Below are positions 19,924-58,000 of a DNA stretch of 64,000 bases, in pieces. The translations under genes were made by a program, and so were the position numbers. Below the pieces are notes generated by a model, which did not search any database, was not told the origin of the DNA, and saw only the letters and a list, made by a program, of their open reading frames with translations. This DNA comes from Carallia brachiata. Lineage: Eukaryota > Streptophyta > Magnoliopsida > Malpighiales > Rhizophoraceae. Positions within the stretch are counted from its first letter, which is position 1. Every line of letters begins with the position of its first letter. The stretch is taken from assembly GCA_021464245.1 (NCBI GenBank), contig JADCRB010000065.1:690689-754688 (forward strand). The letters are read 5' to 3'.

Positions 19924-22900
19924 ATGCTTTCGACCCGTTGCTTCCACACAGCCCATCATCTAATCAACAACAACTTGTACAACAACATTAACAACAACAA
20001 CAAAAAGCTTGTCCTTTTGAAATCCAAATCCAAACCCCACTTCACTGTGACATCTACTTCTATCTCTCGTTCTCTGTCTCACTCTCAGTCTCAGATTATG
20101 GACAACAACAACAACGACAACGACAACAGCAAAAAACAACAACTGGGTTCGGGATTTTGCCGGAAAGCCTACAGCCCTCCGTCGTGGGCCACCCATCTGA
20201 GTCCGATTCCATCCGGCGTCTTCTCTATGGCCCACCTTCCCACTCCTATCCACAAGTGGAACCTTCCCGGTTTGCCCGACGGCACCGAGGTTTGGCTCAA
20301 ACGCGATGACCTGTCCGGCATGCAATTGAGCGGCAACAAAGTGAGGAAGTTGGAGTTTCTGTTGGCGGACGCCGTGGCTCAGGGCGCTGACTGTGTTATT
20401 ACTATCGGTGGCATCCAAAGCAATCACTGCCGTGCCACCGCCGTCGCCGCTAAGTATCTCAATCTCCCGTGTCACCTCATCCTCCGCACCTCCAAGGTCT
20501 CATTTTCTTGTCTGCGTTTTCCTATTGTTGTCATTTTGATTTTCATTTCAGGGACCCAAAAAAAGGAAAAAAAAAGAGTATATTTTTTACTTTTTAATAT
20601 GTTGGTTGCAGGCTCTTGTGGACAAAGACCCGGGTTTGATGGGCAATCTGCTGGTAGAGCGTTTGGTTGGAGCTCATGTTCATCTTATTTCAAAGGAAGA
20701 ATATGCAACAATTGGCAGTGAGGTTTGTCATTGTGCCTTTTCAACCACAACTCTATTTTTTGTTCTGACTTTTTTTTTTAATGATTTTTTTTGGTGTTCT
20801 ACATAGATTATTGGTGATCTTTGATTAATATTGTTGCCTGTTTGTTATTATCCTTAGTTAGTTTGAAGCATTTATGCATTTTTACTTTATTGATGTGGAT
20901 TCGAGGCTTTTGCTTGTTTTTGTTGGGTTCATGTATGCGATCGACCAGAAGGTGTACAACTTGAAGTTAATTATGTCATATAGTATTCACCGTTGCTTAA
21001 AACGTTTGCCAAACTGTATGTTTAATTCCATGGTTGTGCCTGTACTCCCAAATTGGTTCATAATTTTTGCTACTTGTTTGAGATTGTTTTAAGTTTGTGA
21101 GTACGCCATGAGGGCCTCTCTATCTCATGTTGCTCAGCCAACCCTGCTATAATGCAATTGGCTCAGCTGCCAACGTCCCTAGTAGCTCTACGATATGCTT
21201 CATTGTTTCAGTGCCACGGCTATTTACCAGATGACAGCAGGGGGATATCCAGGGATTGTGAAAGGAACATATATAATTTATTCATCTATGATGATTCGAC
21301 AAAGAAAGCATCACTTGATCTGCCTTTTTTCTCTTTCACAAGTCTCTAAATTTAAGGGTCGTTCATATCTCTAATTTCCCTGCTCCCACCGGATCCCAGC
21401 ATAGCAATATTTTAAAATTACTAAACAATGTTGTCTGTTATGTTATACGGGTGAATTAGCTGACTGAAAGTGGGGAGTGAAACAGGGCATACTGCTATTC
21501 TCCTGGCTGCCTTTCTAATTTCAATGTAGAAGCTTAAACTAAGTCCCCTGGTTCTGATGTTTGGAAGCCAAAATGTGAGAGAATCTTTGTCTGTGTTGGA
21601 AATTGGAACTTTGCAATTGCAACCTTGTTGATGCCTTCTGGAATCCTTTTTAAGCTCCATCAAACTGATCTCTTAAACTGCGGTAGAGTTAGTCTCTAAC
21701 AACCTTGTTTAAAAGGCAATGCATCTACAATGGACCAGAGCTAATTCCCTATGGAAGCAGGGGAGCGTTCTGGACCTTTGACCTGCCCCACGCCTACATA
21801 ATAGTGGCTATGGACACCAAGAATACCACTTGAAGTTGTGATAGATCAATATCTTGGTATCTCACCGCTATATGCTGATCTCCATGCTTTGGCTGTTGGT
21901 GTGATATTTAAATTGGCTGCACCAATTAAGCTGGTTTCATGTTGCTTTTTTTTTTTTAAATGTATCATCTGTTTTTTAAATGCAACTATTTGATTGGTCT
22001 GTTGTTTGTTTTCTTTTCCTTTTTTTTTTCTCGTAAGAATTTCCAACCTCCTTTCTATTATCTTTGGTTTCAGACTCTTACTAGTATCTTAAAAGAAAGG
22101 TTGCTAAGAGAAGGGAGAAAGCCGTATGTTATTCCTGTTGGTGGATCAAATTCCCTGGGAACCTGGTGAGTTAGGTAACTAGTGTACATCTACTCTTCGA
22201 CATGTCATTTGATTTTTTTTTTCTTTTTTTTATTGTAAGAACTTGATACAATCTTAGGAACTTAAACAACTGATTCTGTATGATCTTCATGTTGGTCATT
22301 TTTAGCAAATTCAACCCATTTGATTAATGGGTATATCCACAGGGTACCAAAATGACACAACCGAAACCACATGACCCTATGTGGCTCCTATGAAACCACA
22401 TAGTATAAAAGTGGACTATCCCCTTCTTTTATGCTGTTCTTACCCAAACTACTTTCCAAAGTTTATTTTCTTCCCATTTCTTTTCTTTTTCCCTCTTTCT
22501 TTGGACGGTCATATGTTTAGCTTACATCCTTTGCATGATAAAGAAGGATTGGCAAGCAAGCAGTGGAAGCCTTGAAAACCTTCCTTCTCTAGTTGGGTTT
22601 TCCTAGTATGCATATCTAAATGTGATATGCTGATCTTCTGGATTTTGCTGACGCCTACTTCCATTTCATTTAACTTCTTTAGTCTCTGCTTCTAAATGTA
22701 CCCTGCATTAGTTGGTCTCTTTTTTGTTCATAGTCTTCTTGGTAGTTAGCCCTCAATTGGGCATGCTTCCGATTTTTCTTCCATGATTCCTTGCTACCAG
22801 GATAATATTGCAGTTACGTGTTTTCTCTTACTTCTTATTTTATCATTTGGTAGTTATAAGATTATAATTCTCGAAGTTCTCTGCTTGGAAAGTACTCTAA

Positions 22901-37514: not shown

Positions 37515-38860
37515 ATGTATGGAACAAGAGGTCATTGGAGGCCTGTTGAAGATGAGAAGCTTAGGGAGTTGGTGGAGCGCTATGGTCCTCATAACTGGAA
37601 TGCCATCGCTGAACAGCTCCAAGGAAGATCAGGTCAAATTCTAAATTTCTTTTACATTTTTTAACCAACATATATATATATATATATATATGATACATAT
37701 ATGCTTATTTTTCATCATTTCTTAAGCTAGCCAAGCCAATTTAAGTTATAATAGAAAATCTGTTGAAATAAAAACATGGGGTATATATATATCAACCTAC
37801 AAATGTCTTAATGAAAAAGGGAATATTAATTTGGAACGGACTGCAACCAATATATTAACAACTAATAAAATAGATTATACATTAATTAATTCATTATTAT
37901 TAATTAATTATATATGAAATGAAACGAGATCATCATCAGGGAAGAGTTGTAGGTTGAGATGGTTTAATCAGCTGGACCCAAGAATCAACAGAAGCCCATT
38001 TACACAGGAGGAAGAAGAGCGACTTCTTGCTTCTCACAAGATTCATGGCAATAGATGGGCGATGATTGCAAGGCTGTTTCCTGGCAGAACAGATAATGCA
38101 GTGAAGAACCACTGGCATGTCATCATGGCAAGAAAATGTAGGGAAAGATCCAAGCTTTATGCTGCCAAAGAAGGTGCTGCTGATCATCAATCTCAATTAT
38201 CTGTATCATCATCGTCAGTTCATCATGGGCTGCATGATCAACATCATCATCATCATCATGATTATCTCTCTTCAAAACATGCTTTGCAAGTGAATTCTGA
38301 TCACAGGAGGAACTTTGCTTTTTTTGTGAAGAAATACTGTGAAAGATACGGTCGTCAGCATCCTTATTTCTTGCAGCACAACTATCCGCCCTCTTGCAAA
38401 CAGTTCTACAATGAAACTAGAGGTGATTATGAAGGTAATTATTATATAATTATCTTACATGCAGTTCATACTTCCGTAATTACTTACTAATCCAGTATTG
38501 TTTCATGCCTCTAATACAATTTATTTGAACACTTTGTTGAGACCTCTTGGCCCTATGTTTGTGTTAGAGTCCCAATAAATCTGTTTTTCTTTCATAGCCT
38601 TCGGGCCATCCTTATAACCCAAAAAAATAAATGTGGGTATTGTAGATAAAACCCAGCGGACGGTTGAGTTTTATGACTTTCTTCAAGTAAATACAAGCTC
38701 CAGTAAAAGTGAAGTGATAGACAGGGACAATGCGAGAAGAGATGACGAGGAGGATGAGGAGGAAGTAGATCAAGAAGGCATGTTGGAACGACAAAGCAAA
38801 TCTTCTGGGGTTGCCTTCATTGATTTTCTGTCTGGTGGAAGCTCTTCAAATATAGACTAA
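37515..38860 (+). CDS. R2R3-MYB transcription factor, MYB52/54/56/105/117 group
   Basis: Exons 37515-37632, 37940-38434, 38646-38860 give 828 nt, 275 aa, with clean GT-AG junctions at the usual R2R3-MYB positions. The R2 repeat starts [20 protein letters not shown] and holds [19 protein letters not shown] and [13 protein letters not shown]. The R3 repeat has [35 protein letters not shown] and NHWHVIMAR, with the regularly spaced Trp residues and Phe as first R3 aromatic. This wording is typical of the MYB52/54/105/117 subgroup, nuclear regulators of secondary walls, organ boundaries and branching. After the DNA-binding domain come a His-rich tract (about residue 115), an acidic [10 protein letters not shown] stretch and a C-terminal [10 protein letters not shown] motif. 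The start at 37515 is the ATG nearest the MYB domain. Subgroup is likely; the exact orthologue cannot be fixed. Confidence 0.88.
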
Positions 38861-40457: not shown

Positions 40458-41068
40458 TGTAAAGCGTAAATTTCGAGCCTAAAATAATTAAACTCGAAAA
40501 TACAAAAATAAATTACAAATAAAAATTGTAAAGTAAAAGAAAATTTACGTGGGGTCGATCTCCGTACATCCTCTGATTAGTGTTCCTTTTTTTGACTCCG
40601 TCAAGGGCTGCACGAGCTTGATCTTGACAGAAATAATTTCCACCGCTTTTTCTTGAACTGGATAGACTGAAACTGTGTCTGATTTGGATATTTTGACTAC
40701 GTTTAGGAACCGTAGAGATTTGATCTGAGCCGATCTGGATTAATTTCACCGAGGGTCGAATGGACTTGTTCTCGGATGAGCTGCCTGAATTTTGCTGAGG
40801 GCCGTATGAGGCTTAATCCCAGCCGGATTTGTAATATTTTGATTTTTTTTTTCGCCTGCTTTCTTTTTTTTTTTTCGCTGCGCTCTTCGCTTACTTTTTT
40901 TTTTTTTTTTTTTGCCTGCCAATTAGGGAGGCCATTTATAGGCCTCCCCCATGCCTGCCTGCCACCAACCAAATGGTTGGTGGCATTAATTAGGTTGGCA
41001 GCTGCCAACCTTCAAGGTTGGCGGCTGCCAACCATATAATATATATTTTTTTTTTCGATTAGTTTACA
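40458..41068 (-). repeat. 3' LTR of the Tat retrotransposon, 611 bp
   Basis: The repeat runs from TGTAAAGCG to the CA of TTAGTTTACA and is matched by 49325-49924, with scattered substitutions and one roughly 20-bp insertion here. The element is transcribed on the minus strand, so this is the 3' LTR. Just inside it the minus strand reads GAAGTGGGGGCATT, a polypurine tract. The LTR includes T-rich tracts and a TATAAAT box held in an inverted repeat (40926-40948). Confidence 0.9.
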
Positions 41069-41808
41069 AATGCCCCCACTTCAAGGGTCGGTAAGAAAGA
41101 TTTTTTACAGAGATAATTCGAACCGAGTCTTGAAGTCCAGTTTGAAATTTGGAAAGTCCTGATGAACATTGAATCTTGGAGTCTTCTATCTTTGACCATG
41201 CCTGCTGTTGTTGGATCGCAATAGGAATCCGATACGATCTTGAGAAAGTTAGCAGCCCAGCCAATATAAAAATTGACATTCTAGCTCCAGGTGCATTCGA
41301 GCTTCCATAGCTAGAAAAGGCTGGCAAAGGTTCTTTGAAGTTCCAAAGCTCTGGTGAGGATGATCCGGTAGGTAAAGAACTTGAACCTCCCCAAGAGGAA
41401 GGCCCAGGACCTTGGAACTTCAAGACCGGCACACAGAGAGACTGACTGTAGTGATGATTCCTAAGTCTGCTTCGACGTAAGGAGAGTAGTTGGAACTTCC
41501 CCGTACATCGCCGCATCCAAAGGAAGATTAGGATAATTGCAGCGTCTCATCCCTCTGTAGTAGATGTGAACTAAGGAGAGTAGTTGGAACTCCATGACAC
41601 CGATGGCGTTAGGGATCCCTCGAGGAAGACTACTCCTTCTTTTCTTAGCTCGTGCGCCTCCAACTTCTTGATCGAAGAACTTCCTGAGACAAGTGCAGAG
41701 ACTAGCCATTTTCTTTTGAGAAAGAAGAGCTGAGGGGTGAGTTATAACTCGGGAATGCAAGATATTATACATATGCGATAAAGTTTTTTTTTTTTTTTGA
41801 AAAGTCAA
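41069..41808 (-). CDS. Unidentified ORF region next to the 3' LTR
   Basis: Two overlapping minus-strand frames (41461-41808 and 41064-41516) hold a peptide starting MASLCTCLRKFFDQEV and a Pro/Ser-rich stretch. I recognise no domain. A short direct repeat, AAGGAGAGTAGTTGGAACT, occurs near 41480 and 41573. The region could be the decayed 3' part of the homeodomain ORF or non-coding element sequence. The confidence refers to a real coding region being present. Confidence 0.25.
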
Positions 41809-41895
41809 AAAGAAGGTACGCAGATTCGAGTAGGGCCATCCACGTCCCTTTCCTGCATAAGAGACAAAAGAGGCAGCGGCTGACGCGTGTCACGA

Positions 41896-41974
41896 AAGTC
41901 GTTACCGTGTGTTGCAGAAGTCGTTGCCGTGTGCTGCAGAAGTCGTTACCGTGTGCTGCCAAAGTCGTTGCACC
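41896..41974. repeat. Tandem repeat, 22-bp unit, about 3.5 copies
   Basis: The unit AAGTCGTTACCGTGTGCTGC plus 2 bp repeats three and a half times with one or two substitutions per copy. It lies inside the Tat element between the homeodomain ORF and the 3' LTR. Confidence 0.85.
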
Positions 41975-42221
41975 TTATCTTGTCGGCCGTCCTAGCGGGG
42001 CCCGAGGTGCAACTCCAAGTCAAGCTCGACCTCGTCTGGTGGGCCGATGATGTTGACGTCGCTTTCCGGCTGGTTGATGCCGGAATATTCTGGAAAGAGA
42101 GGCAAAGTTTCGCCGGAATAACTCCTTTCTGCTAGAAAATTCCTCCTAGACTTAAGTATCTAGGAGGGATGAACCCTTGGCTGACTCCGTAAGACCACCA
42201 GGACCAGCATGCTCCCATGGG

Positions 42222-42669
42222 CTACGCTTTGATGAACATACCGTGGAGAGACCATTGCAGTGGAAGAACTCGGACCTGCTTCATTTGAGGGCGAAGCTGT
42301 ACAGTGGGATTTACTATCGGAACGACAGACTGTTCTTTGGAAGAAGCAGTTCTCAGTGCTGGTTTCTTCCTGCTTCTCCGATTCTGGAACCAATAAAACA
42401 CATTTTTTCCTTCGATTGCCCCGAGCGGGCGCAATCGTGAGACAAGTTGGTAAATTTGAGATGCATTAGGAATAATACCTCCATTGTTGTGGAAGACTTC
42501 CTCCAAAATTTGCAGTTGTGCCATGGTCGGTTGCCACCTTGTGCGGGTGATCTTTCTTCTCCCTTGTCTTGAGGTTCTGCAACTGGTTCCATCTTTCTTG
42601 TGGCAGAGGAGCAAAGGTCTTGGTATGTGGTGAAGATCGGTTGAGACTGATGCTGAGTTTCAGACTCAA
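42222..42669 (-). CDS. Retrotransposon-borne ORF with a WOX-type homeodomain
   Basis: The main frame 42614-42222 gives 130 aa; an upstream ATG at 42669 may be the true start after a one-base frame change. Residues 24-84 (42363-42545) form a complete homeodomain. Helix 1 has TRWQPTMAQLQILEEVF, the loop and helix 2 have PNASQIYQLVSRLRPLG, and the recognition helix has IEGKNVFYWFQNRRSRKK, with the invariant Trp, Phe, Asn and Arg. NVFYWFQN is the hallmark of WUSCHEL-related homeobox factors. IEGKN resembles the WUS clade, while NRRSR resembles the other WOX clades. No intron interrupts the domain. It lies in the sense direction between integrase and the 3' LTR. I see no WUS-box or EAR motif downstream. 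It could act as a DNA-binding protein made by the element, or be a non-functional captured piece. Confidence 0.75.
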
Positions 42670-42714
42670 ACCCTCCGTGCTTTTATATTTTTGGGCCGTT
42701 CACAGTTTATACTC

Positions 42715-43055
42715 ATGCGGGCCAGGAGTTGGATTGGATTTTGAACTTGGGTTTTGGATTGTGTCTGGAACTTGGAATTTTTGGGTTTTGGGCTTTGGAT
42801 TGGATTTGGGTCGAGTGTTTGGGCTTCTAGACTTGGATTTTTGGATTTGGGTCGAGTGTTTGGGTTTGATTGGATTTTTGGATTTGGTTTTCAGGCTTTG
42901 AGTTGGACTCTGAATTGGGCTCAAGTGTTTGGGTTTGGATTTTCGCTTGGTCTTTCAGATCGGGACTTCACAATTTTTTTTTTGATTTTTGATTTTTGAT
43001 TTTTTTTTTTTTTTTTTTTTTTTTGATTTTTTTTTTTGATTTTTTTTTAAACATA
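42715..43055. repeat. G/T-rich degenerate tandem repeat and T-rich tract
   Basis: 42715-42960 repeats TTGGATTTGGG and TCGAGTGTTTGGG units with strong G/T strand bias. 42966-43050 is nearly all T with interspersed GA. Both lie between the end of integrase and the homeodomain ORF inside the Tat element. Confidence 0.8.
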
Positions 43056-43073
43056 TTTACACATAATACTGTT

Positions 43074-44140
43074 TCAGAAATTTACCATTGATGGGCCGAT
43101 TCGGACGCCTTCTTGGTCTGACAGCATGTAAGCGTTGTGAGTGTAGGCCTCCTGCACTAAGTATGGCCCGTCCCATTTGGAAGTAAGCTTGTCACCAGGC
43201 CGATGCTTCATGTTGATGGGCCGTCGCACTGCAAGAACAAGGTCTCCAACTTGAAAAGATCGAGGGCGGACCCTGCGGTTGAACGTGTTGGTGAGCCGGG
43301 CTTGGTAGCACTCAAGTTGCTGTTGTGCTTCGAGCCTCCTTTCATCGATGGCTTCTAACTCATCCAGACGTAGGCGAGCATTCTCCTCTTCTGTGAGTCC
43401 TTCCAGAAAAGCCATGCGTAGAGATGGATCTGTGTTTCCAACGGCAGTATTGCTTCGACACCGTAGACAAGTGAGTATGGCGTCGCCTGTGTTGGAGTCC
43501 GGTAAGTTGTACGATACGCCCATAATGCCTCCGGAATTCTGTCATGCCAATCTCTTTTGGATTTAGAGACTACCTTCCGCAACAGGTTGCATAAGGTCTT
43601 GTTGAATGCTTCGGCCAAGCCATTTGCTGGGGCATTGTACATGGATGACTTGTACTGCTTGAACTTGAACTTCTCGCAGAGCTTGTCAATCAAGCTGTTG
43701 TAGAACTGCTTACCATTATCAGTGATGATGAATCGAGGGACTCCATAGCGATAGATCAGCTGAGTCCGGATGAAATTGGCAACATGCTCCTTCTTTACCT
43801 CTCTAAGTGGAATGGCTTCAGCCCATTTTGAGAAGTAGTCTGTTGCTGCGAGGATGTACAGGTGACCAGGGATGACTTTGGCAAGGGCCCCACTAAGTCG
43901 AGACCCCAAGCTTCAAAGGGCCAGGATGAGACAGTTGGATGCAGTGGCTCCGGTGGTTGATGTATGTAATTCGCATGAAATTGACAAGCTTGACAGTTTT
44001 AGCAAACTCAATTGAATCACGTACCATGGTTGGCCAGTAGTATCCCATCCTTCTGAGTTGGAAGTGCAACTTAGGCCCTGATTGATGTCCGCCACAAACA
44101 CCAGAATGTGCTTCAGCGAGAGCTTGTTTTGCCTCTTCAT
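43074..44140 (-). pseudogene. Integrase of the Tat element, frameshifted
   Basis: The catalytic core shows AATDYFSKWAEAIPL (first Asp), FIITDNGKQFYNS (second Asp) and NGLAEAFNKTLCNLLRK (Glu), the DDE triad that joins element DNA to the genome. Upstream fragments (AEAHSGVCGGHQSGPKLHFQ, MGYYWPTMVRDSIEFAKT) belong to the zinc-binding N-terminus. The C-terminus has QVGDLVLAVRRPIN and KWDGPYLV, a gypsy GPY/F module. The pieces sit in at least three frames, so the protein is broken as written. Confidence 0.85.
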
Positions 44141-44351
44141 TCCTAGGCAGCGAAGTAAAACTCCATCAAAAGACCTTCGATACAGAGCATCCTTGAGATA
44201 TATGAAGCGGGGAGCTCGTCGTTGAATTTCTGTCTTATGACGACGATCTTCGGGCAGCTTCCCGTGCTGTAGATAGTCAATGATTGGTTGGCGCCAATCT
44301 TCGTCCTCCGCGAGACGTATAGATACAGCGTTGGCTGCTGTAGTTTCTTCA

Positions 44352-45149
44352 TCATCCTTCTGGCACTATCCATTTCTGGCATACGGCAACAACTGTAGCC
44401 TGGATTTCTGACTTTGCAAGAGAGGTGGCCAGGTTAGCCAACGCGTCTGCCTGAGTGTTTTCTCGTCGAGGCACATGCTCCAAGGTGATGCTTTCAAATT
44501 CATCCATTAGCTGTCGAGCACGTTGATGGTAAGGCGCAAGATCCTCTTTCTTCACGTCATACAATCCTGTAAGTTGGTTGATGACGAGCTGGGAATCTCC
44601 ATGGACTTCTATAGTTGGAATCTTCATATCGACAGCCATTTGAAGACCAATGATCAAAGCCTGGTATTCAGCAACATTATTTGAACATAACTCACCGAGA
44701 ATGATAGCATATGGTAGTATTTGTCGTTGAGGAGTGACAAACACTATGCCGGCACCAGCACCATCACGCCTTGCTGCACCATCAAAGAACATCGTCCATG
44801 GTGGCAGTGTCTCAATGTAAAAGACCTCTTCATCTGGAAGATCATCTGTGAACTCCCAATCTGACGGAACAGGGTGATCTGCAAGGAAGTCTGCTAGAGC
44901 TTGTCCTTTGACTGCTTTTTGAGGCACGTAGACAATGTCGTAGCTTTGTAGGATTACTGCCCACTTGGCAAGTCGTCCTGACAAGATTGGTCTGGATAAG
45001 ATATATTTGACAGGATCAGCTCTGGCAATGAGACGTACCGTGTGAGCTTGCATGTAGTGCCTCAGCTTGTCAATGGCAAAGAACAGTGCTAGACATGTCT
45101 TTTCAATGGGCGAATAACTCAGCTCCGGACCGTTTAGTGTTCTGCTCAA
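44352..45149 (-). CDS. Connected RNase H plus second (archaeal-type) RNase H of the Tat element
   Basis: One open 265-codon frame holds two RNase H modules. The first (about residues 1-95) has SYSPIEKTCLALFFAIDKLR and SGRLAKWAVILQSYDIVYVP, usual after gypsy reverse transcriptase. The second (about 115-255) has FFDGAARRDGAGAGIVF (Asp), NNVAEYQALIIGL (Glu), EVHGDSQLVINQL (Asp) and ENTQADALANLA (Asp), a complete catalytic set. Dual RNase H is a hallmark of plant Tat elements; the extra domain is thought to have been acquired. It cuts RNA in RNA:DNA hybrids during element replication. Confidence 0.88.
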   Translation of the reverse strand: MSRTLNGPELSYSPIEKTCLALFFAIDKLRHYMQAHTVRLIARADPVKYILSRPILSGRLAKWAVILQSYDIVYVPQKAVKGQALADFLADHPVPSDWEFTDDLPDEEVFYIETLPPWTMFFDGAARRDGAGAGIVFVTPQRQILPYAIILGELCSNNVAEYQALIIGLQMAVDMKIPTIEVHGDSQLVINQLTGLYDVKKEDLAPYHQRARQLMDEFESITLEHVPRRENTQADALANLATSLAKSEIQATVVAVCQKWIVPEG

Positions 45150-45249
45150 GTAGTACAGGCAACTTCCTTTCCCTGCTCATTTTCCTGCTGTGCAAGAGGC
45201 TCCCAAAGATCTTTCCTGCGCTGCAATGTAGAGAATCAACGACTTTCCT

Positions 45250-46142
45250 TGAATTGGAGCTCCTAGGACCGGTGGATGGAAAGGTACTTCTTTATGCTCT
45301 CAAGGCTTTGCTGCAAGCTTCGTCCCACTCGAAGTTGACATCCTTCTTCATCAACCGATGGAAATGTTGACATCTCCCAGCTAAATTGGAGATAAAACGG
45401 TGAATGTAGGCCAGCTTTCCTTGTAGACTTCGCAGCTCGTGCAGGTTTTTAGGTTCAGGCATCTTTTGAATTGCCTCAACCTTTGACTGATCAATTTCGA
45501 TTCCACGATGGCGCACCACGAACCCAAGAAACTTTCTTGATGTGACCTCGAATGCGCACTTGAGAGGGTTCATTTTGAGCTGATGCCTCCGAAGTCTTTC
45601 GAACACTGTCTTGAGATCCTCGAGGTGGTCTTTGCACTTCTTAGTCTTTACAACTAAGTCATCAATATAACATTCTACAATCTTGTGCAGCATGTCATCA
45701 AAATTTTTTTGCATAGCACGTTGATAAGTGGCGCCAGCATTTTTCAATCCAAACGGCATAACTTTGTAGCAGTAATACCTTTTGGGGTGCGGAATGCTGT
45801 CAACTCTCGTCTTCTGGTGCCATTCGATTGGTTATAGCCTGAAGAACCATCCATGAAAGACAATGCTTCGTGACCGTTGTTGCATCGACTGTGATCTCCG
45901 TTATGGGCAACGGAAAGTCATCTTTCGGGCAGGCCTTGTTAAGATCTCGAAAAATCAACACATACCCTCAACTGTCCATTCTTCTTTCTTACTGGGACAA
46001 TGTTGGCAATCCACGTTGGGTAGGTGACCTCTCGGATGAAGCCGCATTGATCAGCTTGTTCACCTCCTCCTCGATTTGTGGAATGAGTTCCGGGCGGAAC
46101 CGTCGTTGTGGCTGCTTGACAGAACGGACACCCTTCTCCTGA
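45250..46142 (-). pseudogene. Reverse transcriptase of the Tat element, frameshifted
   Basis: Pieces in order are an N-terminal block with PTWIANIVPVRKKNGQLRVC and DLNKACPKDDFPLP, then MPFGLKNAGATYQRAMQKNF, the catalytic YIDDLVVKTKK (the YxDD motif) and the thumb part RKFLGFVVRHRGIEIDQ. It copies element RNA to DNA in virus-like particles. Fragments are in different frames around 45760-46000, so it is interrupted. Confidence 0.85.
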
Positions 46143-46749
46143 TAGCTTAAGCCAGGTTGGGACTGTGATGTTTGAGAAGCAGCGCCATGTGTGGACGGTA
46201 GCGTACCCATTGTGCTCGGGTTTGAGAAGTCATAGCCCGCCTTGGCCAAAAGCTTGTATGCATTAGGATCAAATCCTTCATGTGTTCTTCTTTCTGGAAG
46301 TGAGCCGCCTTCGACTGTTGCTGTGTGTGGTTTGACGAAACCTTTTAATGGTTTTGAGGACAAAACCGGCTCAATCTTTGGTATCGGCAGAGTGTAAGTC
46401 CCCTTCAGGTTGTGCAGTTCCTTTGTTTTGGGTTGGCTATGACTTTGCTCCTGTTTAAGATCAATACAATATGAGAAAGGGGGTTGACCTTTTGAGCGTC
46501 GTGACTTCGGCACATAGCGTAGGACTGGAGTGGAGCTTGAAGATGCAACATCCTTCGGACGGAGTTCAGCAGACTGTGGCAGCTTTTCTTTTGCCGAAGT
46601 CTGAGGTTGAGCATTAGCAGGTTCTTCAACAGCTTTTCCCTTTTTGTGGATGCCCCCAGTCCAAGTAGCTTTTGATGGAATGATCTCCGGATTGTCTGTA
46701 TCGGTGTAGAAGACTGCATCCGCCAAATGTGATTCAGCATCATCGAACG

Positions 46750-47110
46750 GCTTTAAGTCAGCATTGACCTTTTGAACGCCACCATTGTAGTACTTGAAGC
46801 ACTGATGCAGGCTTGAGAGCACAACTCCATTTCCATGAATCCACGGTCGTCCTAGCAACATCTTATATGTGGTACGTGCATCAATCACGTGAAATAGAGT
46901 GCTAGAAGTGAGATTACCGATAGTTAGCTCCAAGCGAATCATCCCAATTGCTTTCTGTCCTCCTTGATTAAAGCCATGAATCATCAAGCGGCTGTCTGAT
47001 AATTCATCAATGCCATGCCGAGCTCCTTTATGGTGGATTTTGGGATAATATTGACTGCTGAACCATCGTCGATCAGAATACGTCGGACCTTCTGTCTCAC
47101 ATAGCCTGAT
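46750..47110 (-). pseudogene. Aspartic protease region of the Tat element, frameshifted
   Basis: The minus strand shows RRILIDDGSAVNIIPKSTIK, with the retropepsin-type active-site Asp-Asp-Gly-Ser, then after a frame change DELSDSRLMIHGFNQGGQKA and the flap/loop part LLGRPWIHGNGVV. This protease would mature the Gag-Pol polyprotein. A frame break lies close to 46990. Confidence 0.75.
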
Positions 47111-47799
47111 ACATACAGCGGCCGATTGTGGGGTTTGGACCCCAGCAGGAGATCCTCATCTGAAAATGAGATAGCAGAGTAACATCCGACGTGATTTTGG
47201 TCCGCCTGTTGCTCCGTGAGTTAGAATCATTTGATGGCTGTGATTCAGCTGAGGTCTGGAGAGTATTGCTGACTTGATTTTGCCACTTGTTGTTGATTGC
47301 AAAGCTATAAACAGCTGAGGGTTAGCGAGAAGGGTTTGGAGAGCTTCATATACCTTCTCCGTTGTCGACTTTTTGTTGTCGAGCGGCTCCTCCTTACGGT
47401 GTGTCACCTCTTCTGATGGTTTTGAAGTGATGGTGGTTGGTTTGCAGAGTTATGCCTTCCTGGTCCAGAATGATTTTATTCTGGCTTTTGAGCTTCATGA
47501 TTAGCTCCTTCAGGACGAAACACTTCTCGTTGGATGACTTACTATCCGGTGATATTTGCAGAATCTCGGATCGCTGACTCGATCCTTTTCATTCGGCCGC
47601 TTGCACTCTGGGAGTTCGATCAGCTTCGCCTCCAAGAGTTGTTCAAGAATGTCGGGGACGTCTGAGTCGGGGAATGGATACTGCTTCTGCTCCAACTCTC
47701 GCAATGTCACCTTCCGCCTTTCCTGTTGTTTTGGCTGAGTTATTTGGGTCGGAGGATTTACCTTAGCTTTGGCGCCCACTTTTACTGGTGCGGCTTCAA

Positions 47800-49086
47800 C
47801 AGTCATCACTTCTTTCCTTTTCCGGAGCTGTTGGGTTTCTTAATCTCCCTTCTGCCCCCTTGCTGGTCCAACTGGATGGGAACCGTGCCTCCGGAAGTCT
47901 GGATGCTTATCTCCATATCATGTGCGCGGGTCGCCAGTTCTTCGAAAGTTCGGGGTTTGACACCCTGCAGGATGTATAACAGCTCCCAATGCATTCCCTG
48001 GATGCACATCTCTACGGCAGAAGTCTCCGTCAGGCGATCTTTGCAGTCCAAGCTGAGGGCACGCCATCTGTTGATGTATTCGACAACGGGCTCTCCTTTC
48101 TTTGTTTGGTGCTGGTAAGCTCCATCATACTTACCGTCCTTCGAGTGCTGAAAAATCTGTTGAGGAACTCTCGTTGTAGCTGTTCCCAACTGTCGATCGA
48201 TTCTGGTTCAAGATTTATGAACCAGGTGAAAGCGGTCTACAAACTGCTTCACCAAGAGATCTCCATAAGTCCCTGCGTTGTTGCAGGTTTCAACGAAGTG
48301 GGCGATGTGCTGTTTGGGATCGCCTCGTCCGTCGAATTGTTGAAATTTGGGCGGCTGGTAGCCCAAGGGCATGTTGAGACTTTCGATCCGTCTGGTGTAC
48401 GGTTTGACGTACATCTGCGATCCTTGGAAGGATGTAGCTTGTTGCAGTCGGATCGTATTGGCTATCATTTCCTGCAATTGTTGAACAGATAGCGAAGCTA
48501 TAGAATTTGAGGGTGGCAGCTGTGTAGAACTACCTGGTCGCTTTTCTGCAGGGAAGACGTCGGCTGGTGTGGCTTCTGGAGTGAAACCGGGTGGATATGG
48601 TTGCTCCTCGCGGATTTCGGGATCAACTTGGATCGGGGCTTTTCCTTTGAGAGCTGCGATCTGTTGATCTTTTTCCTCCACGACTCTGATCAGCTGTAAA
48701 ATTTTGTTCTCCAATTCTGAAATCCTTTCCTCTGTGCTGGTTGTGTTGGTCATCATGACGGCAACAGATGAGGCTCCGGGAAAGACTGGGGGAGAAAACT
48801 CTTCTGATTCTTCTGTGTGGTCGGATTTGTTGAGCAGGTTCGTCGTGTTGCCCCCGATTCGATCGGGGTGGGTGATCGACTCCTCCATGCGGCAAGAGAG
48901 TCAGGGGAGATCCTGTTGTGCAAGCTGTGGACTCTCCATTTCGACATTTTGTCGGGTTTGGACGGCAAGAAATTGTGTCCGTCCCCGGGTTTCTGGACCT
49001 GCGTACCCAGGTAGGGTAGTTGATGCAGGCAATGGAGCCGTTGCCTTCTTTTTTGTGGCAGCAGTTGTACTCCTTTTCGGTGCCAT
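47800..49086 (-). pseudogene. Gag region of the Tat element, interrupted
   Basis: A likely start is at 49086 (MAPKRSTTAATKKK). An in-frame TGA at 48901-48903 and later frame changes interrupt it. The retrotransposon gag domain shows PKFQQFDGRGDPKQHIAHFV, then in a second frame AFTWFINLEPESIDSWEQL and REFLNRFFSTRRTVSMMEL, then in a third EYINRWRALSLDCKDRLTET and CIQGMHWELLYILQGVKPRT. Gag forms the capsid shell. A run of acidic and Ser/Thr residues precedes the domain. Confidence 0.8.
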
Positions 49087-49103
49087 TTGATGTGCTGAAC
49101 ACC

Positions 49104-49276
49104 TGTAAAATTTTTTTTTTTTTTTTTTTTTTTTACTTTTTACTTTTTTTTACTTTTACTTTTTTTTTTACTTTTTACTTTTACTTTTTTTTTTTTTTTT
49201 ACTTTTTTTTTTTACTTTTTTTTTTTTACTTTTTTTTTCTCTCTCGGCTCCCCTTTTACCTCTTTTTTTTTTTTTA
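49104..49276. repeat. T-rich tract with TTTTTAC units inside the 5' end of the Tat element
   Basis: Almost pure T interrupted by AC and TTTAC units, between the 5' LTR and the gag start. On the coding strand it reads as an A-rich leader with GTAAAAA units. Confidence 0.85.
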
Positions 49277-49324
49277 GGAACAAGAGATGGGAGGTGAAGT
49301 GTCCCACCGAGCGTGCCAAAAATT

Positions 49325-49924
49325 TGTAAAGCGTAAATTTCGAGCCTAAAAATTAAACTCGAAAATACAAAAATAAATTACAAATAAAAATTGTAAAGTA
49401 AAAGAAAATTTACGTGGGGTCGATCTCCGTAGATCCTCCGATTAGTGTTCCTTTTTTGACTCCGTCAAGGGCTGCACGAGCTTGATCTGACAGAAATAAT
49501 TTCCACCGCTTTTTCTTGAACTGGATAGACTGAAACTGTGTCTGATTTGGATTTTTGACTACGTTTAGGAACCGTAGAGATCGATCTGAGCCGATCTGAC
49601 TTAATTTCACCGAGGGTCGAATGGACTTGTTCTCGGATGAGTTGCCTGATTTTGCTGAGGGCCGTATGAGGTTTAATCCCAGCCGGATTTGTAATATTTT
49701 GATTTTTTTTTTATCTCTCTCTTTTTTTTTTTTCGTTTCTTTTTTTTTTTTTTTTTCGCTGCGCTCTTCGCTTGCTTCTTTTTTTTTTTGTTCGCCTGCC
49801 AATTGGGGAGGCCATTTATAGGCCTCCCCCATTCCTGTCTGCCACCAACCAAATGGTTGGTGGCATTAATTAGGTTGGCGGCTGCCAACCATATAATTTT
49901 TTTTTTTTTTTCGATTAGTTTACA
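49325..49924 (-). repeat. 5' LTR of the Tat retrotransposon, 600 bp
   Basis: Matches 40458-41068 from TGTAAAGCG to TTAGTTTACA. It would hold the element promoter: on the minus strand a CTATAAATGG box lies between arms GGGAGGCC and GGCCTCCC (49806-49828). The expected primer-binding site just outside it on the minus strand reads AATTTTTGGCACGCTCGGTG; I could not assign the tRNA. Confidence 0.9.
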
Positions 49925-55038: not shown

Positions 55039-58000
55039 ATGGAAAGGTTCCAAATGTTATTTCCATTTTCATCGAATTCTTCTGGTTCAGGGTCTTCATC
55101 AAGCATGGCTAGTCCTCAAGTTTTCAGGAACTTTCAAGATGATAGCTCCAAAGGGTTGATGGTAAAAAAATCAGAAAGTCTTCAAGTAGCACCAAGCGCG
55201 GAGCTTAACACTCAGAGTGCAAACTCTGTTAATTTTGAGTCTGCAGAAATTGAGAGACCAGGCAAAAATAAGAAGGGAGAGAAGAAGATTAGAAATCCCA
55301 GATTTGCTTTTCAGACTAGAAGCCAAGTTGATATATTGGATGATGGATATCGATGGAGGAAATATGGCCAGAAGGCAGTGAAGAACAACAAATTTCCAAG
55401 GTTAGTTGTCACTTTCTACAAGCCAACTATCATTATTATTATTATTATTATTATTATTACTACTACTAAAATTATTTACTTCCCTTTGATTAATTTATAG
55501 CTTAATTAGTTCATTTTACTCTTTTCCAGACCCAAACAATAGGAACGTCATTTTCTTTTTCCATGTCCAAAAATTTATATAAGAGAAGCCTTCTAAATTC
55601 TAGACCGCTTGAGGAAAACTTTGAGGAAAAGTAGTTAGTGTTTTTTTTTTTTTTTGTTCCAATAGAGCCATAGAGGGATGAACAGCAGCTTAAACAGCTA
55701 TAGAATGGGGCAAACATGATCCGTTACAAATTGACTAGGATTGCGGAGGTGATGGTATAGCAAACATGTTTGTTGTCGTTGCAATTATTTGAAGTCTACC
55801 ATGCAGGCAGGCAGGAACATGCATCCTTTTGAAGTGCAAATATGCAGTGAGGGTGTGGTAAAAGTTACCACTTTAGGAGATGTTTCCTCAGTGTGATCTG
55901 TTTAATTGGCATAAAGTTCTTTTCTGTCCTTCCATCAATATGCAAGTACTCTTGTAGCTGCCCCTAAGCACCCTGTTCAATATTAATGGTTCTCTTTCCA
56001 GCTTGATCATTTTCATGACCGTTTGACCAATTCATTAGGCGTTTCAAGCTTGGAACTTGCTTTTTCACTACTATTTGAATATTTAGTATATTTGATAGGC
56101 TTTTTCGATAAGGTTTATGGGGAGTTTAGCTCAGTCCATGTGAAGAAGGAGCGAGAATTTTAAAAGCAGTCGTGCGGCATTGGTTGCACTAAAACAATAA
56201 TATTTTAATTCTTTGTTCAAAATTACAATAATTTCTGGCGGCAGTTTGGTCGCTAGGTCTCCACGAGGATGGAATGGCAAATTAAGGGAGCAACAAGTTA
56301 TCCGTGGAGTTCAGATTAAGACTTGAGATGATGCTTGATTGCTTTTATGTTGGTATCAAGCTAAGTCGTCCTTAATTTGATACATTAGTGTTTGATAACA
56401 TCAATAAATCTATATACTTATATATATATACAAGAATTTTAATGTGAAACTTTCGGCTCTACATACGTCTCCAATGCCATTACTTTCAACTCATTGGTAT
56501 GTTTAAGCTTCCTCGTCTATTTAATTAGTATATTGAGGAAATTTAGAAAAAGCACCGTCGCATCTACGACGTGAGAAAATTACAAATTTTTCTTTTAAGC
56601 TTCAAGGAGGTATACTAATGGTGCTGTTGTTTCTTTGGTCTAGCCACATCCGCTTCCGTAAGAGCAGTCTCCTCAAGCTTAGCCCTTGTCTTCGCGTCAG
56701 TTTTAACTTATAAGAAGTTGTACCAGTTAATCCTCAAATATAAGAGTGGAAAGAAAGGGAATGTGGCTCCAAATCATTACAAACTTCAGAATCCATGCCA
56801 CGTAAACTGGAAAGCTGTTCGAAAGACATGCTCAAACCAAATTGCGGTGCAACTCTAAGATAGAAATAGTGGAAGTTAACGGACGTAGAGTAGGGATACG
56901 TTACAAATAGTGGAAGTTATGGATGATTCAATAGAATAATAATCATTTTTTAATGAGATACAATTATTAATGTCAATTACATAGCATTCAGTTAGTAGGA
57001 ATTATAAAATATTTTGCATTTCATTTGAATATTATTTTTTAGAATAAATATAATAAATTTAGAGAGTGAATTAAGGAAGTTTTCTCTAAACTTCCCCATA
57101 TATATATATACATATAACTTAAGGCAGTGGCCATGGTAAAGCAAAGAAACTATGGACACCACCTTAAGGCTCAATAAACTTCTTAATTAATCAAATGAAA
57201 TAGAAACTATAAACTCCAACCTATCATATATCCCGTTTGCCTAAGGTGCTAGGCACTTCTGAAGATGCCATCAATCTTTTATCAACGACAACAAGAATTA
57301 GGTTACCGACTAAATATAACGTTCCGATCACGTAGTTAATAACAGATCATCAGGGATCAAGACAATTTATACATGGAAAAAAGTTATATCGATCCCTGAA
57401 ATACTTTTAAGCTTGTGAGCTTTGTGTCCTGTGAAGCCACTTTATTTATGATGCAAATGAGCTTCATGGTAACATTTCAATGATTTTCAGCTATGATTAT
57501 TGTACTTATGTGTGTTTGATTGGGAATGAACTTCAAACGCTGATGCAGTAAGACAATAAAAAATTTAGATGAACGCAATTCAGGAACCAAGTAGTTGCAA
57601 TTAGAAGTTCAAGAACGAACTGATCAAGACTAGGTCCATGTACATTCGCTGTTTTAATAAACCACTTATATTTATTTCCAATTTTTTTTTCTTTTGCAAT
57701 GACAACCTTGAATGGCGTCTTTTTATGTGCAAAATGTTACATGGATGTAGATATTATGCATCGCAGTCCGCAGACACAAACTCATACATTACACTATATA
57801 TAATATTATTACTTACATATTGTTAGTTCTTTAATATATGATCAAAGTTAATGATGAAGACTCTCAATATGCATCTACTGGTCATTATAATTCAATATAC
57901 ATCTCGTCTAGAATACAGCAAGTTGATTGTGCATGAACTCGTCATGGATGGATGGTTTTAGATAATGTGTTACTTAATTTGACATTTTTTCGCATCTGCA

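Follow-up and report, generated by a model that had tools for sequence, protein, structure and literature searches.

The closest described counterpart of the gene reported here comes from Vigna: a 2023 meeting report describes WUSCHEL-related homeobox (WOX) copies between long terminal repeats (LTRs) in Vigna marina and V. riukiuensis, with more than 1000 WOX copies in the latter and, for most Vigna copies, identical flanking LTRs and target-site duplications (PMC10714607). A WUSCHEL-related homeobox expansion is also described for V. reflexo-pilosa, with transposons unmentioned in the accessible part of that article (PMC10357499). Here we analyze a stretch of 64,000 nucleotides from Carallia brachiata (Rhizophoraceae; assembly GCA_021464245.1, contig JADCRB010000065.1, positions 690,689 to 754,688), hereafter the window, in which a Tat-type Ty3/gypsy retrotransposon carries a WUSCHEL (WUS)-type WOX gene. 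As in Vigna, many WOX copies lie between LTRs; the accessible part of the Vigna report is silent on the retrotransposon lineage, on the structure and position of the gene and on selection, and the two systems are compared by description only. The Tat context, the complete gene and the signs of selection would be new relative to that report. In a literature search that left most subscription journals and bioRxiv outside its reach, we found no earlier account of a Tat element with a homeodomain gene or of selection on such a gene.

Extra open reading frames (ORFs) between pol and the 3' LTR are known from Retand and other Tat elements, where they are mostly antisense and associated with TRP28, whereas the frame described here runs in sense and encodes a homeodomain (PMC11963269, PMC7264820). 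In the accessible sections on Retand, an antisense TRP28 ORF is reported in 97% of clusters, and the sense ORFs examined between pol and the 3' LTR (over 600 bp) have no known domain (PMC11963269). In the window copy, TRP28 was found in none of the six antisense open frames tested. A further likeness is an orchid Ty3/gypsy element with an AlkB m6A demethylase, likewise a captured host-type domain that was kept over several replication rounds; AlkB is an enzyme, whereas the captured gene here is of the transcription factor type (PMC9289625). The same study covers extra domains in 121 plant assemblies, and its main text, as far as accessible, nowhere uses the stem 'homeo' (PMC9289625). Two further articles bear, in their accessible parts, no relation to the finding (PMC13175896, PMC12903786).

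The WOX gene in the window and across the family

A sequence-only reading of the window had singled out a 130-codon open frame (42222..42614; all gene and element features are on the minus strand unless stated otherwise) whose residues 24-84 form a homeodomain (42363..42545) carried by a Tat element. This observation holds: the gene is of WOX type, and in the window element its homeodomain sits in sense, with integrase on one side and the 3' LTR on the other. The parts of the gene outside that frame were seen by three-frame translation of 43100-41060. They comprise an ATG (MEPVAEPQDKGEE..., 42590..42592), which starts a natural frame of 207 amino acids (aa) in other copies, a WUS box, TLPLFP, in another frame (42091..42108), an EAR-like LDLELHL (42004..42024) and the stop codon (41992..41994). 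Since ATG, homeodomain and WUS box fall in three different frames, the window copy appears to be a damaged form of a full WUS-type gene with homeodomain, WUS box and EAR-like end. Chance as the source of this ending is ruled out by 5000 shuffles of the region, in which TLxLFP arose 17 times and the whole WUS box-EAR ending never. An intron from the homeodomain to the WUS box was also rejected, because other copies cross the stretch in one frame; the window copy does permit GT-AG joins of 110/113 nt, and some strong in-frame pair occurred in 108 of 2000 shuffles. A nested DNA transposon around the gene was rejected as well: of two inverted-repeat pairs in 41000-43500, neither flanks the gene, and one arm of a pair falls within the homeodomain.

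All 16 residues listed as conserved in WOX homeodomains (PMC11548557, accessible part) are present in the window copy, and the residues to which DNA contacts (R38, N90, R94), an anchor (W39) and dimer formation (I66, F85) are ascribed in WUS (PMC7203112) are retained. Helix 3 reads NVFYWFQNR, and the ...FQNH signature of the modern (WUS) clade (PMC11548557) is absent. The WUS box, which is confined to the modern clade except that WOX11 has a partial form (PMC5977200), was found in its modern-clade form TLxLFP, with variants such as TLSLFP or ILPLFQ in some copies. The EAR-like domain, reported for every member of the WUS and WOX5 subgroups bar AtWOX7 (PMC5977200), closes the gene in the window copy and in other copies. 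The mixture of clade traits claimed in the sequence-only reading is thus real, lying in helix 3 versus the modern-clade box and end. Because helix 3 reads NVFYWFQNR, the gene is filed as an apparently derived relative on the modern side, not as a plain member of the modern clade.

We searched the host genome (337.5 Mb, 164 contigs) with three queries. Candidate counts are first-look figures and, since only the best 150 per query were scored, lower bounds. The homeodomain query gave 3,047 candidates (best 150 of 3,047 all E<=5e-47), the whole ORF, taken as the natural 207-aa frame of another site, gave 2,302 (best 150 of 2,302 all E<=2.4e-117), and integrase gave 2,761 (best 150 of 2,761 scored, all strong matches). 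For a sample that ignored the homeodomain, 12 sites were spaced down the best 150 of the 2,761 integrase candidates (the plan was 16 rows at intervals of about nine; already-fetched rows were swapped for neighbours and 12 taken). At all 12, the WOX gene lies downstream of integrase in sense, with DNA identity of 87-96%. Among the first 20 loci, taken from the homeodomain list at 9.9 kb each, reverse transcriptase (RT), RNase H, integrase and homeodomain are ordered on one strand in 17. Three loci depart from this pattern. L018 is rearranged and contains two homeodomains, L021 yields no match to RT or the integrase core, and L020 is a short LTR element lacking gag-pol matches, with homeodomain and WUS box in one frame and an LTR divergence K of 0.006. 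This young element has no match to the window LTR. The two homeodomain copies of L018 (G000:C92:308900-318800) are ~1.9 kb apart, in keeping with a rearranged or nested site. The sampled sequences show the WOX gene to be a regular part of the retrotransposon family, in the same place and sense in nearly all copies.

In 7 of the 20 loci of 9.9 kb, a single open frame extends from the homeodomain through the WUS box to the EAR-like end, an internal stop is absent from 13 of 20 further copies spaced down the whole-ORF list, and 104 of the best 150 of the 2,302 whole-ORF candidates are stop-free as counted by eye. Since open frames run through the gene in several copies, no intron interrupts the open copies, as the sequence-only reading had proposed. 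These sequences show a gene of ~207 aa with the homeodomain at its N-terminus, followed by a WUS box and an EAR-like end, continuous in many copies. LTR-pair K values are 0.003-0.052 in 19 of the 20 loci (many pairs being clipped by stretch ends). The family amplified recently. Three copies on three contigs (L059, L060, L061) have 0 differences over 624 bp, and 23 rows share one identical score among the best 150 of the 2,302 whole-ORF candidates, a sign of a very recent burst. In L064, L073 and L074, with otherwise similar surroundings, the homeodomain takes a second form (FYNDG..VPNSTQILQ), the latter two also having ..VYFWFQNRRHRE; it looks as if domain parts had been swapped between subfamilies.

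Upstream of the gene, the window copy has TATAAAA 95 nt 5' of the ATG (42681..42687). In 45 of 47 copies, TATAWAW is found at -83 to -98 of the ATG, from which we infer a separate promoter; the conserved place speaks for one, though the copies are related. In the internal region the motif count is unremarkable (1 vs 0.95 expected), and TATAWAW fell within 150 nt 5' of the ATG in 19 of 2000 shuffles.

Selection on the homeodomain and rival explanations

The ratio of nonsynonymous to synonymous change (dN/dS, omega) was estimated in three differently chosen samples. In 47 copies selected for similarity to a homeodomain query that took in the window's N-terminal frame, omega was 0.133 for the homeodomain (bootstrap 0.05-0.35), compared with 1.12 and 2.07 in shifted frames. 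The integrase C-terminus gave 0.320 (0.21-0.49; 45 rows of this set), and the linker (0.68) and box-EAR region (0.71) resembled shifted frames. In 20 copies picked by whole-protein similarity (about every seventh row), the homeodomain reached 0.185 (0.10-0.37), against 0.67 (0.30-1.52) and 2.96 in shifted frames. The 12 integrase-chosen copies gave 0.371 (0.23-0.58), against 0.65 (0.37-1.20) and 1.37 (0.78-2.92); this is the least biased and weakest figure, clearly weaker than the 0.13-0.19 of the similarity-chosen sets, though its copies too come from among the 150 integrases closest to that of the window. The sequence-only reading would have been undone by a homeodomain missing from other copies and evolving neutrally. 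The opposite was found, with the domain at all 12 integrase-chosen sites and dN/dS across copies indicating purifying selection in the least biased sample.

The distribution of changes among copies points the same way. Homeodomain changes confined to one copy comprise 6 synonymous, 18 nonsynonymous and 3 stops, versus 13 synonymous and 4 nonsynonymous for shared changes (Fisher P 0.0016); with 67 copies, the figures are 10/31 versus 16/10 (P 0.0042). Single-copy changes, mostly post-insertion, thus look near neutral, and shared changes look conservative. The near-neutral singletons also speak against the search having simply picked conserved homeodomains. Minor residues occupy 5 of 745 cells at 16 family-conserved positions versus 64 of 2327 elsewhere. 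These patterns indicate that the homeodomain is under purifying selection between transpositions, followed by near-neutral decay after insertion.

The explanation we consider most probable, and hold with good though not full confidence, is that of a resident accessory gene: a WUS-clade-like WOX gene captured long ago by a Tat-type family, with its DNA-binding part under selection. The window copy (open frame 42222-42659) is one of the decayed copies. Several results weigh against this explanation. An ATG frame over homeodomain and WUS box (box ends variable) exists in only 4 of the 12 integrase-chosen copies, and one with a strict box in 1 of the 47 copies of the biased homeodomain-chosen set. 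The linker and the WUS-box/EAR region show no constraint distinguishable from shifted frames in any of the three samples, so that conservation supports DNA binding, not co-repression. In several samples, one of the shifted-frame intervals overlaps that of the homeodomain (0.37-1.20 for 12 copies, 0.30-1.52 for 20 copies), and in the singleton/shared test with 67 copies, one of 11 other region-frame comparisons (linker, shifted frame) gave P 0.025. Finally, WUS-preferred TGAA pairs show enrichment in none of seven LTR pieces, nor is TGAA by itself enriched.

The TGAA result also bears on an improbable alternative, in which the gene mainly regulates the element itself through LTR binding, an action that the sequence-only reading had suggested for the product. 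Both LTRs of the window have a slight excess of TAAT (12 vs 6.8 expected, P 0.039; 15 vs 8.2, P 0.017), and the element homeodomain has R at the position of WUS S36, where the substitution S36R moves the WUS homeodomain toward TAAT (PMC7203112, accessible part). However, many motifs were tried, and the two LTRs from the window are nearly the same sequence. In 5 other copies, TAAT shows no enrichment (P 0.24-0.98) in LTR pieces delimited by self-BLAST, which do not match the LTRs exactly. LTR auto-regulation is therefore unsupported by the TGAA and TAAT tests. With no consistent enrichment of WUS sites across the LTRs, we prefer the still unproven reading that the product acts in trans on host genes.

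A neutral passenger, that is, one transduction into a lucky carrier with functionless hitch-hiking thereafter, was already disfavoured and has a slim chance of being correct. It would fit the many frame-broken copies and the seemingly unconstrained linker and C-terminus, and fast drift would also fit the lack of a close host gene. It sits poorly with homeodomain omega of 0.13-0.37 versus 0.65-2.07 in shifted frames, with conservative shared changes beside near-neutral singletons, and with retention of the gene by the gag-pol-less L020. Moreover, 28 of 60 core positions are unlike WUS, and the 16 family-conserved residues all fall outside these (P 4e-6); part of the divergence from WUS may date from a host gene. 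Constraint on RNA or DNA, such as a packaging signal or an enhancer, instead of on protein is very unlikely. The region is where cis signals could lie, and the stretch from TATA to ATG is well conserved (mean column identity 0.92-0.96 vs 0.77 further upstream). Yet nucleotide-level constraint would suppress synonymous differences, whose proportion in the homeodomain (pS 0.097-0.160) is about equal to or above that in the rest of the gene, and the signal becomes weaker or vanishes once these columns are read in shifted frames. A host gene fragment placed inside the element by nested insertion, which the sequence-only reading had named as a possible refutation, is itself refuted: the gene keeps one position and orientation at all 12 integrase-chosen sites and in 17 of the 20 other loci, and its identity to the 14 host WOX genes found is at most 54.4%.

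Origin of the gene and structure of its carrier

A WUS query of the host genome returned nine exons at 66-83% identity, the other 141 rows lying at 52-56% and including many known element copies; a second probe yielded three intermediate-type and two ancient-type exons. We take these 14 WOX exons as host genes, with putative subgroup labels based on clade signatures. The closest is 54.4% identical to the element homeodomain, the core of which is ~53% identical to host and Arabidopsis WUS. In a homeodomain tree, the element sequences cluster together (98/97), and the branch leading to them measures 1.32 changes per column; a split from the ancient and intermediate host genes (90/86) tentatively puts this long branch on the modern side, with no placement inside it. 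Host WOX1-type homeodomains show 6 and 7 aligned differences from Medicago STENOFOLIA, counted by eye in the tree alignment, a weak sign against a close legume as host. Since no host gene of the 14 exceeds 54.4%, the copy was not taken recently from them, leaving an old capture or very fast divergence. Together with the family-wide presence, this agrees with the earlier proposal that the gene was kept long enough to diverge. Searches of a protein database and of viral contigs found no relatives of the gene, as expected for plant sequence.

Compared with WUSCHEL and other modern-clade WOX proteins, the element gene shares the homeodomain fold, DNA contacts, WUS box and EAR-like end; it differs in core identity, in NVFYWFQNR, in its long branch and in its residence in a retrotransposon. 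Of the claim that a host WOX-related mRNA had been captured, the WOX-related part stands, and the source may have been mRNA or DNA: in each of the nine modern-clade host exons found, the homeodomain is uninterrupted, and the lack of an intron in the element homeodomain is therefore uninformative on this point.

Domain order and a second RNase H indicate that the carrier of the WOX gene is a Tat-type Ty3/gypsy element. It measures 9,467 bp (40458..49924), with a 5' LTR of 600 bp (49325..49924, TGTAAAC...TTTACA) and a 3' LTR of 611 bp (40458..41068) that differ by a Kimura two-parameter distance of 0.037 (579 sites; 14 transitions, 7 transversions). Starting at base 7 past the 5' LTR, TGGCACGCTCGGTGGGAC (49301..49318) resembles a primer-binding site, which we presume it to be from its position. 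An open frame with the gag piece follows (48208..48888; same order in other copies), for which a Pfam search gave nothing above cut-off. The pol order of protease, RT, RNase H and integrase between the LTRs fits a Tat-type element, the protease piece being placed by position, as Pfam gives no match. The RT piece lies at 45292..45759 (RVT_1, E 2.8e-17). The frame at 44352..45149 holds RT_RNaseH in residues 1-70 and a second RNase H in residues 122-241 (RVT_3, E 2.9e-25). An RVT_3 domain downstream of the RT RNase H is a hallmark of Tat and is present in the window element. The integrase core (43355..43909; rve, E 6.4e-10) is followed in a different frame by a C-terminal piece (43074..43523; SH3-like match, E 3.6e-4, under cut-off).

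Between the WOX gene and the 3' LTR lie a 22-bp tandem repeat (41896..41969, no strand assigned), a 20-nt exact direct repeat (41478/41572) and two overlapping sense open frames of 115 and 150 codons (41064-41808), for which Pfam gave nothing above cut-off. A host MYB-domain exon adjoins the element (37954-38490, plus strand). Also on the plus strand are a host exon like D-cysteine desulfhydrase / ACC deaminase with a PALP domain (19924-20721) and a partial WRKY-domain exon (55039-55500). Searches of the window for tRNAs and Rfam families gave no match.

Possible action in trans and its meaning for the host

Under the resident-gene explanation, the WOX gene would be transcribed from its own TATA promoter ~95 nt 5' of the ATG, and its product would bind WUS/WOX-type DNA sites in trans, as a mimic or competitor of WUS, possibly recruiting co-repressors via the WUS box and EAR-like end. 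Meristem or germline-precursor cells would thereby be shifted to a state in which new insertions arise and are inherited, benefiting the element. The protein's use to the element is what we infer here, and the trans-acting mechanism as a whole is a tentative proposal, possible rather than probable. More doubtful is a counterpart of the retroviral oncogenes, in which a selected stem-cell regulator would make or prolong meristem-like or germline-precursor cells for the element's inheritance; if that were true, mobile WUS-like genes would confront the host by the hundreds.

For most accessory genes of plant retrotransposons no use is known; the one described here is a recognizable DNA-binding developmental regulator with a solved relative. 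The evidence of selection and the many recent copies make its role directly testable by ordinary binding and expression work. Transposons can also inflate the number of WOX genes counted in a plant genome. A role of the kind proposed would link the success of a retrotransposon to the stem-cell system, in which it is settled what plant cells will yield gametes.
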